In this document: positions 792 to 40,880 of the stretch, piece by piece
How the letters are laid out: each line of letters begins with the position of its first letter
Numbering within the stretch: position 1 is the first letter of the stretch
DNA from: Vicinamibacteria bacterium
GTDB taxonomy: Bacteria > Acidobacteriota > Vicinamibacteria > Fen-336
Assembly (NCBI GenBank): GCA_035570235.1
Contig: DATMML010000037.1
Span: forward strand, 110,977-152,425
Length of the DNA stretch: 41,449 nucleotides
Reading direction: 5' to 3'
Notes under the pieces: generated by a model
What the model was told of the DNA's origin: nothing
The model's input: only the letters and a program-made list of their open reading frames with translations
Databases searched by the model: none
Translations under genes and position numbers: made by a program

Positions 792-2924
792 CTATTTGAG
801 CCCGAACTCGCGGGCGCGCAGGCTCTTGATGCGGTCGCGCAGCCCGGCCGCCTTCTCGAACTCCAGGGCCTTGGCTGCCTCCCGCATCTGCTTCTCCACG
901 ACCTTGATCTCCTTCTCCAGGTCGTCGAGCGTGCGGTAGCGCTCCTCGGGGCTCTCCGCCACCTCCGGGATGGGCGCGTAGTCTGCCTCGTATACCGACG
1001 ACAGCAACTCCGCGATGTTCTTCCGGATGCTCTCGGGGGTGATCCCGTGCTCGCGGTTGAAGGCCTCCTGCAGGGCCCGCCGGCGGCTGGTCTCCGATAT
1101 GGCGGCGCGCATGGAGTCGGTCTCCTTGTCCGCGTAGAGGATGGCTGTGCCCGCTACGTTGCGCGCGGCGCGGCCCATGGTCTGGATGAGGGAGCCGCTC
1201 GAGCGAAGGAAGCCCTCCTTGTCCGCGTCCAGGATGGCCACCAGCGAGACCTCGGGCAGGTCCAGGCCCTCCCGCAGGAGGTTGATTCCCACCAGGACGT
1301 CGAATTCGCCCTTGCGCAGGTCGCGCAGGATGCGCACGCGCTCGAGGGTCTCGATGTCCGAGTGGAGATACCGCACGCGCACCCCGAGGTCGTGGTAGTA
1401 CTCGGTCAGGTCCTCGGCCATCCGCTTGGTGAGGGTGGTGACGAGCACGCGCTCGTTGCGGGCGGCCCGCACGCGGATCTCCGCCAGCAGGTCGTCCACC
1501 TGGCCCTTGACCGGCCGGATGTCGACCACGGGGTCCATGAGGCCGGTGGGCCGGATGACCTGCTCCACGACCACCCCCCCGGACTTCAGGAGCTCGTAGG
1601 GGCCGGGGGTGGCGGATACGTAGACGACCTGGCCCAGACGGCTCTCGAACTCCTCGAAGTTCAAAGGACGGTTGTCGAGGGCGGAAGGAAGCCGGAAGCC
1701 GTACTCCACCAGGGTCTGCTTCCGCTGACGGTCCCCGTGGTACATCCCCCGCACCTGGGGGACGCTCTGGTGGCTCTCGTCCACGATCATGAGGGCGTCC
1801 TTGGGCAGGTAGTCGAGGAGGGTGGGGGGCGGCTCGCCGGGCGCCCGTCCCGAGAGGTGGCGCGAGTAGTTCTCGATGCCGTGGCAGTGGCCCACCTCGC
1901 GCAGCATCTCCAGGTCGAACATGGTCCGCTGATAGAGCCTCTGGGCCTCCAGCAGCTTGCCCTCTCGCTCCAGCACCGCCTTCTCCGCGAGCAGCTCCTC
2001 CTCGATGGTTCTTATGGCGTCGTTCAGCTTGGGCCGGGGGGTCACGTAGTGGCTGGAGGGATAGATGGCCACCTGGGCCAGGCGCCCCATGGCCTTCCCG
2101 GTCAGGGGATCGAAGGCGCTGATCTGCTCCACCTCGTCCCCGAAGAGCTCGATGCGGATGCCGGTCTCCTCGTAGGCGGGCACGATCTCCACCACGTCCC
2201 CCCGGACCCGGAAGGTCCCCCGCTTGAGCTCGTAGTCGTTGCGGTCGTAGCGCGCCTCCACCAGCTTGGCCAGGAGGTCGTGGCGGTCGAGGGCCTCCCC
2301 CTGGCGGACGAAGAGGAGCATGCCGTAGTAGGCCTCGGGCGAGCCCAAGCCATAAATGCAGGAAACGGAGGCCACGATCACGACGTCGCGGCGCTCGAAC
2401 AGGCTCCGGGTGGCGGAGAGGCGCATGCGGTCGATCTCGTCGTTGATGGTGGCTTCCTTCTCGATGTAGGTGTCGGACTGGGGGACGTAGGCCTCGGGTT
2501 GGTAGTAGTCGTAGTAGGAGACGAAGTACTCGACCGCGTTCTTTGGGAAGAAGGACCTGAACTCCTGGTAGAGCTGGGCGGCCAGGGTCTTGTTGTGGGC
2601 GAGCACGAGGGCGGGCCGGTTCACCCGGGCGAGCGCGGAGGCGATGGTGAAGGTCTTGCCGCTGCCGGTGACGCCGAGCAGGACCTGCTGCTTGTCCCCC
2701 CGTTCGATGCCGGCCACGATCTCCCCCACCGCGCGCGGCTGGTCACCCCCGGGGGAGAAGTCGCTCTTGAGCTCGAAGCGGGTGTCGGCAAGGGCGGGGG
2801 CGAGGCGTGGCTCCGGAGGGCGGCCCCGGTAGGTTCCCTCACCCCGCCCCTGGACGGCGGGCTCCCCGGAGCTTTCGCCGGGGGCTAGGTCGTGCGCGGG
2901 CGGCCGGGGACTTCGGGATCTCAT
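792..2924 (-). CDS. uvrB: Excinuclease ABC subunit UvrB
   Basis: DNA damage-verification helicase of nucleotide excision repair; it is loaded by UvrA and recruits UvrC for incision. Visible features: Walker A GVTGSGKT at about residue 84-91, the aromatic beta-hairpin region [12 protein letters not shown], the helicase motif IVDESH, motif VI region QTMGRAARN, and a C-terminal UVR motif ([19 protein letters not shown]) that contacts UvrC. The chosen ATG has GGAGG five bases upstream; an in-frame start further upstream lacks this. At 710 residues it carries about 45 extra poorly conserved N-terminal residues. A TATCAT hexamer at 2954-2959 on the minus strand could be its -10 box, but I see no good -35. 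It is divergent from the bactofilin gene. Confidence 0.97.
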
Positions 2925-19339: not shown

Positions 19340-20779
19340 TTAGAGCTGGACGGGCTGGGTCGCCGCCTCGAAGCTCGGAGCCCGGGCGGGCAGGGGTGCC
19401 GCTCCCACCACCGGCTCCACGAACACCCGGTAGGCGTCGCGGTAACCCTGCTCCAAGAGGTCGGCGGTCGTCTGCCACACCTCGGTGGCGGGATCGCGGG
19501 CTCCGCCCAACTCCAGGGGACCCAGGAACCGCCGCTCCGGCCGAACAACATAGAGGGCGAAGTCCCGGTAGACCCTCAAAGTGGCGGGATCCTGCCAGGC
19601 CCGACCCCCGTCCTCGGTTCGATGACCCAGGGTCTCCACCATGCGGTTGATCCTCTCCGCTCCGTGGATGTCGCGCTCCAGGGCTTGCCGCTCCAGGGCG
19701 GCGAGCACGCTCTCGAGCTGCGCGCGGGCCCCGCGGCGACGCGTCAGCGGGGCGGCGGGGACGGGGGTGGCGGAAGCCACGATCACCTGCTCCGCGCCCG
19801 CAGCCAGGGCCTCGGAAATGCCGGCCCCCATGACAAGGGTGGCGTCGCTCAGGCGGTGGGTCTCCCCTCCGAAGAGCCCCCCCTTGGGGAAAGCCACCCG
19901 CCGTACGGGGGCGGCCAGGGGCGGGAGGAGGCCGGTCATCACCGCCTCGAAGAGCATCCCACCGTAGCCAGGGGCGCGCAGGTCCACCGCCCCCGGGATC
20001 CCCTCCAGTCGCGAGCGCGGTTGCTGCGCGCGGGCGGCCACGAACGCGGTTCGGTGCTGGTCCTGCAAAAGGACGAAGGGAAGCACGCCCTCCCCGTCCA
20101 GGTCGGCGGTGCGCAGGATGAGCTCGCGGAAACCGGGCTGACCGAGGTTCTCGGCGGCCAGGGCCACGAAGCGCTCGCCGAGCTCGGCTTCCGAGGGCGG
20201 CCTCCGGGAGAGGGCGGGGCCGCGGGCGATCTCCCAAAGCCCGCGCCGCAAGCGGTCCTGCCCGGGGCGCACGGAAAGGAATGACTCGAAGGACTCCGGG
20301 AACCGACGACCGTCCCGGAGCCAGGAGCGGACCAGGAAGACGAGCATCACGGCCGCGAGGGCGAAGATGGGCAGGGCGAGGGCGGCCAGGTAGGGACCGC
20401 TCAGGACTTCGGGCGCGACCCAGAACCGCCCCAGGGCGCGCGAGGGCAGGCCGGGAGCCAACCGGTCCGCGATCAGGACGAGCGGAAAGAGGAGGCCCGC
20501 GACCAGGGCCAGAGCCAAGGGCAGGAGGAAGATCGCGAACGACAAGCCCAGCAGGACCACGGCCAGGAGGGCCAGCGGTCGCAGGGCGAAGAAGGAGCCC
20601 CCGCGCACGCCGTCCCAGAAGCCGCCGGGACCATACAGCTTGGAGCCGCCCGCCACCGCGCCGTAGGCCGCCGCCACCGCGCCCACGCCCGAGCCCACCA
20701 GGAGGTCGATCTTGACCCCGCTCTCGTCCAGGGCCCGCAGCACGCCCGCGTGATAGGCGCCGGCGGTGCCCGTCCCCAC
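19340..20779 (-). CDS. Patatin-like membrane-associated protein lacking the catalytic serine
   Basis: 479-residue patatin-fold protein. The oxyanion-loop region is GTGTAGAYHAGVLRALDE; the nucleophile elbow that normally reads GTSAGA is GSGVGA, so the serine position is glycine. A long double membrane segment (about residues 63-105 and 129-150) is inserted after the elbow. The Asp motif region survives as SDATLVMGAGISEALAAGAE. It may therefore be a pseudo-phospholipase that binds lipid. The first in-frame GTG (20779) would cut off the first beta-strand; in the same frame a CTG at 20821 with AGGAG eight bases upstream restores KRRTALILVGTG and may be the real start. The gene precedes the MetB-type gene and follows the UvrC-like gene on the same strand. 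Confidence 0.75.
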   Translation of the reverse strand: MGTGTAGAYHAGVLRALDESGVKIDLLVGSGVGAVAAAYGAVAGGSKLYGPGGFWDGVRGGSFFALRPLALLAVVLLGLSFAIFLLPLALALVAGLLFPLVLIADRLAPGLPSRALGRFWVAPEVLSGPYLAALALPIFALAAVMLVFLVRSWLRDGRRFPESFESFLSVRPGQDRLRRGLWEIARGPALSRRPPSEAELGERFVALAAENLGQPGFRELILRTADLDGEGVLPFVLLQDQHRTAFVAARAQQPRSRLEGIPGAVDLRAPGYGGMLFEAVMTGLLPPLAAPVRRVAFPKGGLFGGETHRLSDATLVMGAGISEALAAGAEQVIVASATPVPAAPLTRRRGARAQLESVLAALERQALERDIHGAERINRMVETLGHRTEDGGRAWQDPATLRVYRDFALYVVRPERRFLGPLELGGARDPATEVWQTTADLLEQGYRDAYRVFVEPVVGAAPLPARAPSFEAATQPVQL

Positions 20780-20850: not shown

Positions 20851-21855
20851 TCACCGAGCGCGGGTGGCGGCCACGTCCACGTTGAGGGCGGCCCGGATCC
20901 CGGCCAGGAGCAGAGAAGCGTCGGGACCGTCGGGCACGGGGACGTAGCTTCCCCTCCCCCGCGGGCTCGCCAGCCAGGCGGAGAGCCAGGGCCAGTCGAG
21001 GCCGGGCGTCGCCGGCGGTTCCCATCGCAACCGATCGAGGCTCGCCTCCAGGTCTTCGCGGGTCGTGGTGAGGCTGAGCTCGTCCAGGACCCGCCCCGCC
21101 TGCAGCGGGTGCAACTCGATCCCCGCCGTCCCCGCCACCACCACCAGGCCGCGGGCGGGCGCGGCCGATACCCAGGGGGGCAGCCAGGCCGCGAACTCCG
21201 GGGGCCGTAGCCACGGCTGCGCGAGCAGGGCCGCGGCCTCCCCGGCCAGGCGGCGGTAGGCCTCCTCGGAGACACGGGCCAGACAGGGGGCGGCGCAGGA
21301 GCGCACCTGGGCGTAGAGGCAGCCCAACCCGAGGGGGAGGACGGGATCGGGCTCGAAGGTGTAGTCGCAGGGGCGGAGGGGGTGGACCTTGTGGAGGGCG
21401 GCGCGGGTCCGCTCCGCGGCCCGCCGATTGCGGAAGGGGCCGAAGAGAGCGCGACCCCCGGCCTCGGCGTCCCGGATCGTGACGCGGGGGAAGCGCACCT
21501 CGGGATCCAGGTGCAGGAACGCGGGCGGCTTCAGGTCGCGGCGGGCGGCCGGGGGCACATGAATCGCCATGAGGCGCTCGTAACGCAGGCGCTGGTGGAA
21601 GGCGGAGGTGGTAGGCGCGTAGCCCACCGCCGTCGCCAATGAACGGAGGTCGGTGGGCGGGCGCTGGCCGGGGCGGCGGGGCCCCGCCCCGAGGTGGGAG
21701 GCGGCCCAGCGTCTCACGCTCGACGTGCGCCCGATCACGAGGTTGCTTCCGTCAGGGCCCAAGATCTGGCCGACCCCGGGCGCCCCCGGCAGCCGGGCCA
21801 GGAATGCGGCGAGGTCGGCGTCGAAGGGAACGATCGTGAGGGGAGCGGCGGGCAC
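20851..21855 (-). CDS. UvrC N-terminal-domain-like protein with degenerate GIY-YIG
   Basis: 334 residues. Residues ~25-55 align with the GIY-YIG nuclease start (PGVGQILGPDGSNLVIG; real UvrC: PGVYLFKDAEGTILYVG), but both catalytic tyrosines are absent. Residues ~138-215 match the cysteine-rich section of UvrC: FGPFRNRRAAERTRAAL, RPCDYTFE, GLGCLYAQVRSCAAPCLA, keeping all four cysteines (in UvrC reported to hold an iron-sulfur cluster). It lacks the UVR, RNase H-like and HhH regions of UvrC. It is not Cho, which keeps an active GIY-YIG. Probably a DNA- or protein-binding derivative; function unknown. GTG start, 13 bp after greA. A complete uvrC is present at 39.1-40.9 kb. Confidence 0.68.
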   Translation of the reverse strand: MPAAPLTIVPFDADLAAFLARLPGAPGVGQILGPDGSNLVIGRTSSVRRWAASHLGAGPRRPGQRPPTDLRSLATAVGYAPTTSAFHQRLRYERLMAIHVPPAARRDLKPPAFLHLDPEVRFPRVTIRDAEAGGRALFGPFRNRRAAERTRAALHKVHPLRPCDYTFEPDPVLPLGLGCLYAQVRSCAAPCLARVSEEAYRRLAGEAAALLAQPWLRPPEFAAWLPPWVSAAPARGLVVVAGTAGIELHPLQAGRVLDELSLTTTREDLEASLDRLRWEPPATPGLDWPWLSAWLASPRGRGSYVPVPDGPDASLLLAGIRAALNVDVAATRAR

Positions 21856-21868
21856 CGGAACGGGGCCG

Positions 21869-22360
21869 TCAGGCTCCGGCCGCGGAGTCCTTCATCTGGT
21901 CGTGCATCGTGACCAGCTTGGTGATCTCGTACTCCTTGGTCCCGGAGGGCACCACCACCTGGACCGTGTCCCCCTCCTCGTGGCCGAGCAGGGACTTGCC
22001 GATGGGAGAGGAGGGCGAGATCCGTCCCACCGTCGGGTCCGCTTCCTCCGGGGTCACGATCTCGTAGACCACTTCCTCCCTGTTCCCGGTCTGGCGCAGG
22101 CTCACGGTGGAGCCGAGGCCCACCTTGTCGTGCGGGACCCGGTCCAGGTTCATGAGGGAGAGGGCGGCCAACCGGCGGTGGAGCTGGCCGAGGCGCGCCT
22201 GAAGGAAGCTCTGACGCTCCTTGGCCGCCTTGTACTCGGCGTTCTCGCGCAGGTCGCCGTGCTCCCGGGCCCGGAGGATCTCCTTCGGGAGGTGCACTTT
22301 CAGCTCGAGGTCGAGGGTACGAATCTCCTCTTCGAGCCGCCTTTTGATCTCGTCCACCAT
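21869..22360 (-). CDS. greA: Transcription elongation factor GreA
   Basis: 163-residue factor that enters the RNA polymerase secondary channel and stimulates cleavage of backtracked transcripts. N-terminal antiparallel coiled coil (residues ~1-75: KRRLEEEIRTLDLELKVHLP, then AREHGDLRENAEYKAAKERQ) carries the conserved acidic tip Asp-Glu (GDLRENAEY). C-terminal FKBP-like domain: VGLGSTVSLRQ, ISPSSPIGKSLLGHEEGDTV. ATG at 22360 has only a weak SD. It starts the minus-strand run that contains the UvrC-like, patatin and met genes and is divergent from the rRNA methyltransferase. Confidence 0.93.
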   Translation of the reverse strand: MVDEIKRRLEEEIRTLDLELKVHLPKEILRAREHGDLRENAEYKAAKERQSFLQARLGQLHRRLAALSLMNLDRVPHDKVGLGSTVSLRQTGNREEVVYEIVTPEEADPTVGRISPSSPIGKSLLGHEEGDTVQVVVPSGTKEYEITKLVTMHDQMKDSAAGA

Positions 22361-22389
22361 GATCGCCCGCGCCGATGGCGCCGAACCCC

Positions 22390-22402
22390 GTGATAGTATC
22401 AC
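22390..22402. promoter_or_regulatory. Symmetrical element GTGATAGTATCAC between greA and trmH-like gene
   Basis: Perfect 13 bp palindrome (GTGATA G TATCAC) in the 56 bp between the divergent greA and RNA methyltransferase starts. On each strand it contains a -10-like hexamer (TAGTAT on plus, TACTAT on minus), so it may be a shared bidirectional promoter core or an operator. No good -35 is seen. Confidence 0.35.
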
Positions 22403-39079: not shown

Positions 39080-39092
39080 GGGGTCAGACCCC
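39080..39092. repeat. REP-like palindrome GGGGTCAGACCCC at the uvrC stop
   Basis: Perfect 13 bp palindrome whose centre is the uvrC stop codon (TGA on the minus strand). The sequence resembles the palindromic cores of REP-type repeats seen near RAYT transposases in other bacteria (from memory). Only one copy is in the window. It may be a short terminator or an inserted repeat end. Confidence 0.35.
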
Positions 39093-40880
39093 CTTCGCGA
39101 AATGGGCCTGGATGGCTGCGGCCGTGGCCCTGCCCACCGCCGCCCTTAGCTCCGCTTCGCTCGCCCCCCGCACGCCCCGCACGGAGCCGAAGCGCGAGAG
39201 CAGCTTCTTGCGCTTGGTCGGTCCCACCCCCTGGATCTCATCCAGCTCCGAGCGCAGCGTGCGCGCGCGGCGGGCCTGGCGGTGGAAGCCCACCGCGAAC
39301 CGGTGGGCCTCGTCGCGGACCCGCTGCACGAGCTGGAGCACGGGCGAGTGGCGCGGGAGCACGAAAGGGGCTTCGCGCCCGCGCAGGTAGATGAGCTCCT
39401 CCTTCTTGGCCAGGCTGGCCACCGGCTGGTCGCCGATGCCGAGCTCCTCCAGGGCCGAGACCGCCGCCCCCAGCTGGCCCTTGCCCCCGTCGATGAGGAT
39501 GAGCTCGGGCAGGTCCTTGCCCTCCTCCAGCAAACGCTTGTAGCGCCGGCCCACTACCTCGCGCATGGAGGCGAAGTCGTCGGGGTGGCCGGCCACGCCC
39601 TTGACCCGGAACTTGCGGTAGTCGGCCTTCTTGGGCAGGCCGTCCTCGAAGGCCACCATGGAAGCCACGATGTCCGAGCCCTGGATGTTCGAGATGTCGA
39701 AGCACTCGATGCGCCGTGGCTCCATCTCCAGGTCCAGAAGGTCGCGGAGGGCGCGCAGGATCTCCTGGGACTGCCGGCGGGGATGCCGCCACTCCAGATC
39801 GAAGGCCAGGCGGGCATTGCGCACGACCAGGTCCAAGAGCCGGAACTTCTCGCCCCGCTGGGGGACGCGGATCCGGACCTGCGTACCCCGGCGGGCGGAG
39901 AGCCAGGACGAGAGTAGCTCCCGATCGGGGATCTCGACGGGGACGAGGATCTCGCGCGGGACGTAGCGGCCCGACGCGTAGTACTGCTGGAGGGTAGAGG
40001 AGAGCACGGACTCGGGCTCGGTGAGGTGGTCGAGGAGGTAGCCCTCACGGGCCACCACCTTCCCGTCACGGACGGAAAAGACCTGGACCGCCGCCCGCTC
40101 CCCCTCCCCGTAGGCCGCGAAGAGGTCCCGCTCCTCGAGCTCGGTGGTGGTGATCTTCTGGGGGGTCTCCAGGCGCTCCAGGGCCCGGATCTGATCGCGC
40201 AGGCTGGCCGCCTCCTCGAAGCGGTCCCCGCCCGCGGCCCCCTCCATCTCTCCCCGGAGCCGGCGCACGACCTCCTCCGTGCGCCCCTCCAGGAACAGCC
40301 GGGCGTCGTCGCAGGCTTTGCGGTAGCGATCGAGGGAGCAGATCTCGGCCACGCAGGGGGCGAGACAGCGCTTGATCTGGTATTGCAGGCAAGGCCGAGG
40401 CCGCCGCCCGTTCAAGACCTCCCGGCAGGAGCGGACCCCGAAGAGCTTGCGGGTCAGGGAAGCCGTCTTCCGCCCCAAGCTGGCCGGAATGTAGGGCCCG
40501 CCATAAGCGTTGCCGTCCTCCCCTGGCCGCCGTACCACGTAGAGCCGGGGGTACTCCTCGGAAAGGGTCAGCTTCAGGTAGGGATGATTCTTGTCGTCTC
40601 GGAGGAGAATGTTGTAGCGTGGCCGATGACGCTTGATGAGGTTGTTTTCGAGGGCCAGGGCCTCCATCTCGGTGTCGGTGAGGACGAGGTCGAGGTCGGC
40701 GATCTCCGCCCGCAAGGACTCGAGGCGCGGGTCGGTGGGACGCGAGGCCTGAAAGTAAGACCGGACGCGGTCGCGCAACACGCGCGCCTTGCCCACGTAG
40801 AGGATGGTTCCCTCCGCGTCCTTGAAGAGGTACACGCCCGGCCGGAGAGGAAGGGTCTCCAGCTTGTCGCGCAGGGGCAC
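39084..40880 (-). CDS. uvrC: Excinuclease ABC subunit UvrC
   Basis: 598-residue nuclease making both cuts in nucleotide excision repair. N-terminal GIY-YIG (PGVYLFKDAEGTILYVGKAR, residues ~14-33) with LALENNLIKRHRPRYNILLR; Cys-rich section (RSCREVLNGRRPRPCLQYQI, then KRCLAPC); UVR motif (FEEAASLRDQIRALE); RNase H-like domain (ECFDISNIQGSDIVASMVAF; LPELILIDGGKGQ); C-terminal tandem HhH (LDEIQGVGPTKRKKLLSRFG). GTG start has GGAGG directly before it, while TATAAT lies just 6 bases upstream, implying a leaderless transcript. Downstream of trmO (59 bp), same strand. Confidence 0.97.
   Translation of the reverse strand: MPLRDKLETLPLRPGVYLFKDAEGTILYVGKARVLRDRVRSYFQASRPTDPRLESLRAEIADLDLVLTDTEMEALALENNLIKRHRPRYNILLRDDKNHPYLKLTLSEEYPRLYVVRRPGEDGNAYGGPYIPASLGRKTASLTRKLFGVRSCREVLNGRRPRPCLQYQIKRCLAPCVAEICSLDRYRKACDDARLFLEGRTEEVVRRLRGEMEGAAGGDRFEEAASLRDQIRALERLETPQKITTTELEERDLFAAYGEGERAAVQVFSVRDGKVVAREGYLLDHLTEPESVLSSTLQQYYASGRYVPREILVPVEIPDRELLSSWLSARRGTQVRIRVPQRGEKFRLLDLVVRNARLAFDLEWRHPRRQSQEILRALRDLLDLEMEPRRIECFDISNIQGSDIVASMVAFEDGLPKKADYRKFRVKGVAGHPDDFASMREVVGRRYKRLLEEGKDLPELILIDGGKGQLGAAVSALEELGIGDQPVASLAKKEELIYLRGREAPFVLPRHSPVLQLVQRVRDEAHRFAVGFHRQARRARTLRSELDEIQGVGPTKRKKLLSRFGSVRGVRGASEAELRAAVGRATAAAIQAHFAKGV

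Follow-up and report, generated by a model that had tools for sequence, protein, structure and literature searches.

The locus considered here raises the question of what a UvrC-like protein may do once its nuclease site has been lost and its four cysteines have been kept. The protein concerned, encoded by ORF 20851-21855 on the reverse strand and named X here, lies in a window (the whole stretch of Vicinamibacteria DNA analysed, 41,449 nucleotides in length) whose features are collected in Table 1. As a complete uvrC and a uvrB are present in the same window, X is a paralogue and not the UvrC of the organism, and a UvrC-derived protein here coexists with an intact UvrC.

Table 1. Features of the window discussed in the text (residue numbers are those of X)
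Feature	Position	Strand	Remarks
uvrB	816..2780	-	UvrB match
Patatin-like gene	19340..20779	-	Downstream of X; weak Pfam match under cut-off
X, predicted nuclease-dead UvrC-like protein	20851..21855	-	334 aa, GTG start
Putative remnant of the post-UVR region of UvrC	20899..21168	-	Residues ~230-319, profile-profile comparison
C-x15-C-x7-C-x3-C segment, equivalent of the UvrC four-cysteine loop	21283..21369	-	Residues 163-191
Predicted GIY-YIG fold, canonical catalytic residues replaced	21541..21822	-	Residues 12-105, AlphaFold model
greA	21869..22402	-	13 bases upstream of X
uvrC, complete	39084..40880	-	598 aa; retains the catalytic GIY-YIG residues and all four cysteines

Having lost catalytic residues as well as domains, and being missing from two of the 14 genomes of its family, X could be a decaying pseudogene or remnant. 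We regard this as highly improbable, since orthologues occur in 12 genomes, the codon positions are coding-like (GC 0.77/0.59/0.91), dN/dS amounts to 0.19-0.33 (NG86, seven orthologue pairs) and 58 positions are invariant among the ten full-length orthologues, with 12 Arg, 4 Cys and 3 Trp among them. The dN/dS values and the invariant positions together mark X as a maintained gene, and X is under purifying selection in its Vicinamibacteria family.

A close orthologue of X was found in 12 of the 17 genomes of the window's order and in 12 of the 14 of the same family, which belongs to the Vicinamibacteria (Acidobacteriota) and appears to be represented mostly by soil and groundwater MAGs. A profile search at class level (119 genomes) detected no X outside that family, the matches there being, to judge from score and frame length, UvrC or fragments of it. 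Within the family X is absent from G398 (68% complete) and from G400, and its absence from the latter, 98% complete genome indicates that it is dispensable. When contigs were scanned with the single X protein as query, no relatives were detected; scanning with an alignment returned 348 pattern matches and 312 relatives, the best 80 of which were all from Acidobacteriota. Sixty-nine of these best 80 loci belong to a second group, from Terriglobia and neighbouring lineages, whose members are ~360-480 aa in length with a decayed GIY-YIG and intact cysteines. A profile of this Terriglobia group matched, at E<=1e-60, 22 of the 217 genomes of the phylum, 21 of them in one family, with one copy in each. 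UVR is retained in many Terriglobia relatives but deleted in X, and PF02151 was matched by 12 of the 33 members of set A2, whereas X matches nothing. A plasmid search gave no match at 1e-5; at E<=10 the distant matches among those listed (12 of 53) were UvrC, an annotated exonuclease fusion and others that are unannotated. Among viral contigs one partial relative was found, encoded near the end of IMGVR_UViG_3300012982_000015 (L177:242-613; 33% over residues 77-200).

The relationship of X to UvrC is readily overlooked, as the Pfam scan returned no domain at E<=10 and a plain domain scan would thus miss the protein; the Pfam library overlooks the GIY-YIG domain of X-type proteins. Two NCBIfam models matched residues ~18-212 with scores far under the model cut-offs, namely the DEDD-exonuclease/GIY-YIG fusion model NF005907, which was the best match (E 2.4e-25; 89 bits against a cut-off of 454, the match beginning at profile position 226), and NF011260, the best among the UvrC models (E 3.3e-13). 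The original prediction had assigned X to the first 220 residues of UvrC and had named a profile search and a structural overlay on UvrC as checks. Profile-profile comparison of 11 X orthologues with 11 UvrCs gave a clear match (E 7.9e-22, probability 99.4%, 299 columns), and the kinship therefore stands; its extent does not, since X 13-319 corresponds to UvrC 4-353 with the UVR stretch unmatched. The UVR motif was found neither by Pfam at E<=10 nor in the profile-profile alignment with UvrC. The stretch retained beyond it (X ~230-319) matches the initial RNase H-like part and does not include the nuclease catalytic domain; both the RNase H nuclease domain and HhH are absent, as X stops at the equivalent of UvrC ~353 (PF08459 begins at residue 380 in the window's UvrC).

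The AlphaFold2 model of X has a mean pLDDT of 87.5 and a pTM of 0.86, with low confidence around the cysteines (block means 55-66 over residues 161-190). Its top Foldseek match is the UvrC GIY-YIG domain 1yd6_C (E 1.1e-3, target TM 0.71), and the VIA-align overlay on this domain gave Z 10.0 and rmsd 2.8 over 85 aligned positions of residues 12-105. An equally good match in the same comparison is the N-domain of plant Grx, 2lwf (Z 10.5, rmsd 3.0, 86 aligned). By this model, a GIY-YIG superfamily fold is predicted in X. The suggestion that X is a stand-alone cysteine module was consequently abandoned, since the decayed GIY-YIG keeps its predicted fold and part of the post-UVR region is retained. 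A second, hidden GIY-YIG at residues 109-234 (21154-21531, reverse strand) was also considered and rejected, with an hhalign probability below 1% and no GIY-YIG in Pfam. Weak structural matches of the same residues to Slx1 (6seh_C, Z 3.6, 80 aligned, rmsd 3.6; 6sei_C, Z 3.4, 85 aligned, rmsd 3.8) hint that the middle part of UvrC-type proteins may be shaped like a GIY-YIG domain, an idea for which sequence support was not found.

The nuclease site was evaluated in a single alignment comprising 12 orthologues of X, 91 rows from the Terriglobia side, 16 UvrCs and E. coli Cho. Site numbering follows T. maritima UvrC, with Y19, Y29, Y43 and N88 as in PDB titles, and R39, E76 and K32 as what we take to be the residue numbers of the same protein. 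In X the motifs are altered from GVY to GVG and from LYVG to LVIG, and the replaced catalytic positions are G29, V40 and W50. The position of Tyr19, which is Y in all 16 UvrCs, is occupied by G (eight) or A (four) in the X orthologues, that of Tyr29 by V (five), L (five) or M (two), that of Arg39 by Trp in 12/12 and that of Tyr43 by H, Q or S. Neither of the two tyrosines, nor Arg39, nor Asn88 is kept by any of the 12 orthologues, whereas all four are present in 16/16 UvrCs; Asn88 is lost in the Terriglobia group as well. The loss of both GIY-YIG tyrosines, as originally predicted, was thus confirmed in every orthologue, and homologues with an intact GIY-YIG, which would have spoken against it, numbered 0/12 among the close orthologues. 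At the position of Glu76, X carries Tyr or Phe in three alignments, directly followed by the invariant Glu93, and the catalytic glutamate is, as aligned, lost or moved by one residue. X does not carry the GIY-YIG nuclease signature (GIY, YIG, central Arg, C-terminal Glu), and the alignments show it to have lost the catalytic residues of 3' incision and to be without the 5'-incision domain.

The alternative to a loss of cutting is that X remains a nuclease whose active site has been rearranged and consists of Glu93, Arg48, Gln30 and Arg105/Arg106/Asp107. All these residues are invariant in the X orthologues, the alignments put Glu93 at one residue's distance from the canonical Glu, and the invariant Glu93, Arg48 and Gln30 leave room for such a site. 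It is nevertheless quite improbable, given that both tyrosines, the canonical Arg (Trp throughout) and the Asn are gone and that, according to excerpts of PMC9426483, replacement of the second GIY-YIG tyrosine is by itself enough to inactivate this domain of T. maritima UvrC. As a non-cutting copy has been kept under selection in close relatives, X probably serves a role that needs no cutting.

The four cysteines behave in the opposite manner to the nuclease residues. C163, C179, C187 and C191 are invariant in 12/12 X orthologues, in line with the prediction that they had been kept, and are spaced C-x15-C-x7-C-x3-C, compared with C-x11-C-x7-C-x3-C in the window's UvrC. All four are likewise found in 91/91 Terriglobia-side rows; however, 69 of these rows were fetched by a pattern containing two of the cysteines, and the unbiased count is therefore 12/12 for X and 22/22 on the Terriglobia side. 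Comparison of the cysteine regions gave E 1.6e-23 for X with the Terriglobia group, a closer match than that of X with UvrC (2.4e-16). To our knowledge, the purpose of the UvrC Fe-S cluster is not settled. The Fe-S paper on UvrC is reportedly that of Silva et al. 2020. Elsewhere, the [4Fe-4S] loop that follows the GIY-YIG domain of UvrC is described in PMC9426483 as contributing to complexes of UvrC with dsDNA, and the Deinococcus protein has, according to PMC8837605, an iron-binding site close to its GIY-YIG domain. By its conserved residues, the cysteine loop of X is probably a metal, probably Fe-S, site. The X orthologues are furthermore basic (pI 9.5-10.8), and the net charge of their GIY-YIG part (+6.6 to +11.6) exceeds that of the window's UvrC (+1.8), while the middle region (X 111-215) carries a lower charge than that of UvrC (+4.2 versus +9.8).

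Comparison with known proteins was undertaken at the level of domain build. X shares with the N-terminal half of UvrC the GIY-YIG fold, the C-x7-C-x3-C end of the cysteine segment and part of the post-UVR region, but differs in its longer first cysteine spacing (x15 versus x11) and in having neither the catalytic residues nor UVR, the RNase H nuclease domain and HhH. Among five UvrC features tested in the sequence, only the four cysteines were found, and X is rejected as a UvrC orthologue on this basis. The Cho-like class is defined, in excerpts of PMC1564403, by GIY-YIG, C4 and UvrBb without EndoV/HhH; X shares this general build, which the Terriglobia group fits best, but is nuclease-degenerate and without the UvrB-binding motif after C4. 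E. coli Cho is, like X, a stand-alone GIY-YIG with a cysteine segment; it keeps the nuclease residues (His at the Tyr43 position) and is without the first cysteine, the reverse of the situation in X. The Cho-like+Exo class (DEDD exonuclease plus GIY-YIG, PRK07883/NF005907) supplied the best NCBIfam match noted above, and the Nonomuraea fusion carries a C..C..C..C segment as X does, together with an intact GIY-YIG motif. However, X has no N-terminal DEDD exonuclease, and the fusions examined have an intact GIY-YIG. By its defining features, X falls outside these classes. A nuclease-dead member of the UvrC and Cho-like classes is not mentioned in the portions of PMC1564403 cited, in whose text the word start 'acidobacter' is absent, and the CC-licensed PMC literature, covered by titles and the starts of abstracts with subscription papers outside this scope, contained no description of an X-like protein.

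Several of these relatives have taken the opposite path to that of X. In the Tsukamurella fusion the GIY-YIG motif is intact and the cysteine segment is broken, and six exonuclease-GIY-YIG fusions from Vicinamibacteria (L068-L073) have an intact GIY-YIG and no four-cysteine segment. Five of these six come from X-bearing genomes (G402-G406), and a DEDD exonuclease partner for X was considered and rejected there, as the fusions are separate genes with the features just described. An intact nuclease with lost cysteines, as in Cho and in the Tsukamurella and Vicinamibacteria fusions, indicates that the two modules are separable, and a live GIY-YIG without cysteines set beside X without a nuclease indicates that the cysteine loop has a value apart from 3' incision. 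X, which lost the nuclease and kept the cysteines where Cho and several exonuclease fusions did the opposite, is a natural separation of functions that could show what the four-cysteine loop does with nothing to cut.

The gene neighbourhood was considered as a further indication of function, the original prediction having linked X to transcription-linked repair through the preceding greA. The gene order was confirmed: greA is directly upstream of X in 12/12 genomes and in 22 of 23 X loci (the remaining one being truncated, and several loci coming from contigs that are counted twice). Where the contig continues, X is followed by a gene of patatin-like or response-regulator type. Conversely, among eight X-less greA neighbourhoods examined, greA and a patatin-like gene are next or close to each other without X in G398 (of X's own family), G379, G408, G116, G097 and G014, with a wider gap in the last two, and greA has neither neighbour in G400 and G121. 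As the greA-patatin pair exists without X, X sits inside an older pair and the gene order is independent of it. Flanking the Terriglobia-side loci, greA occurs in 2/76 and tldD-like genes in 27/76. The pair without X and the Terriglobia count together leave transcription-linked repair with gene position as its argument, and the repair link is doubtful.

The same observations bear on the proposal that X works in some unrelated process as a structural or regulatory partner, for instance in transcription elongation with GreA or with the patatin-like product. On this view the old scaffold from UvrC would have been turned to protein binding, along with a structural zinc site. The constant adjacency of greA, the patatin-like or response-regulator genes that follow, the failure to find a terminator-like site around greA and X and the lack of UVR are consistent with such a role, but the occurrence of the greA-patatin pair without X and the different neighbours beside the Terriglobia relatives make it unlikely. 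At greater distance, uvrB and uvrC flank X at ~18 and ~17 kb in the window; G213 has the same order at ~19 and ~20 kb, and in both cases the three genes share a strand. Furthermore, uvrB is on the contig of X in G333, G403 and G397. Beside Terriglobia relatives, a ~515 aa protein without a Pfam match was observed (L079:10000-11541, reverse strand; L084:5961-7517, forward strand), similar sequence being present in 20/76 Terriglobia-side loci.

The basic GIY-YIG part and the invariant cysteines make a non-cutting, DNA-binding accessory of the UvrC family, with a metal (probably Fe-S) loop, the best explanation overall, to which we assign a probability of about 0.5. The part of this reading that concerns identity, namely that X arose long ago as a paralogue of the UvrC N-terminal half, is now a pseudonuclease and comes closest in build to Cho-like proteins, is very probably correct; the part that concerns mechanism, DNA binding and an accessory action without cutting, has a little less than an even chance. 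X would bind dsDNA through the basic surface of its pseudo-GIY-YIG and the four-cysteine loop, would serve as a non-cutting accessory on UvrC-type substrates, and may in this way tune repair or recombination. A recombination role of H. pylori UvrC that needs neither nuclease site is described in excerpts of PMC9426483. The low model confidence at the cysteines, the missing UVR motif, the lower charge of the middle region, the room left for a rearranged active site and the dispensability of X in G400 count against this explanation.

X might alternatively be an inhibitor or decoy that replaces UvrC at UvrB-DNA complexes and so limits incision, as it offers the same scaffold without either nuclease site in genomes that hold an intact UvrC and, in 11 of the 12 X-bearing genomes, a UvrB match (two of them partial). 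The deletion of the UVR motif, however, leaves X with no known UvrB contact and renders this improbable: docking on UvrB by the usual UVR-UVR contact is precluded, which leaves a tie to UvrB unsupported and speaks against plain competition through UvrB.

The descent of X was explored in three trees. In each, a single branch separates UvrC and the fusions from a set made up of the X orthologues together with the Terriglobia group; this join received support of 100/99, 94/89 and 99/96, and every tree carried a long-branch warning. The first tree included 22 of the 91 Terriglobia-side rows and the second and third 21, the long row L027 and the cysteine-less exonuclease fusions being left out of the latter two; E. 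coli Cho was included in the second only, the third lacked four UvrC rows, and none of the trees contained the partial X orthologue L040. In the Terriglobia group, the Tyr19 position is F70/L9/C4/Y3/I2 with three gaps (91 rows), Tyr29 is retained in 82/91 and Arg39 in 75/91 rows, and Glu76 is found in 0/91; these differing losses indicate that X and the Terriglobia group lost the nuclease site in different ways. A single old paralogue that later took two paths is a likelier history than two separate origins. A bolder and tentative proposal, which we consider doubtful as a whole, is that Acidobacteriota hold an ancient UvrC-derived pseudonuclease family with Vicinamibacteria and Terriglobia branches, whose working part would be the iron-sulphur loop and which would act as a non-cutting, redox-sensitive DNA binder, marking or guarding DNA that is damaged or recombining. 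If this were true, the Fe-S function of UvrC would have been separated from its nuclease function in an Acidobacteriota family. A divergent relative encoded at L083:4844-5968 (reverse strand), with the same gene in L027, keeps GIY and has VLD in place of YIG, and possibly represents an intermediate state.
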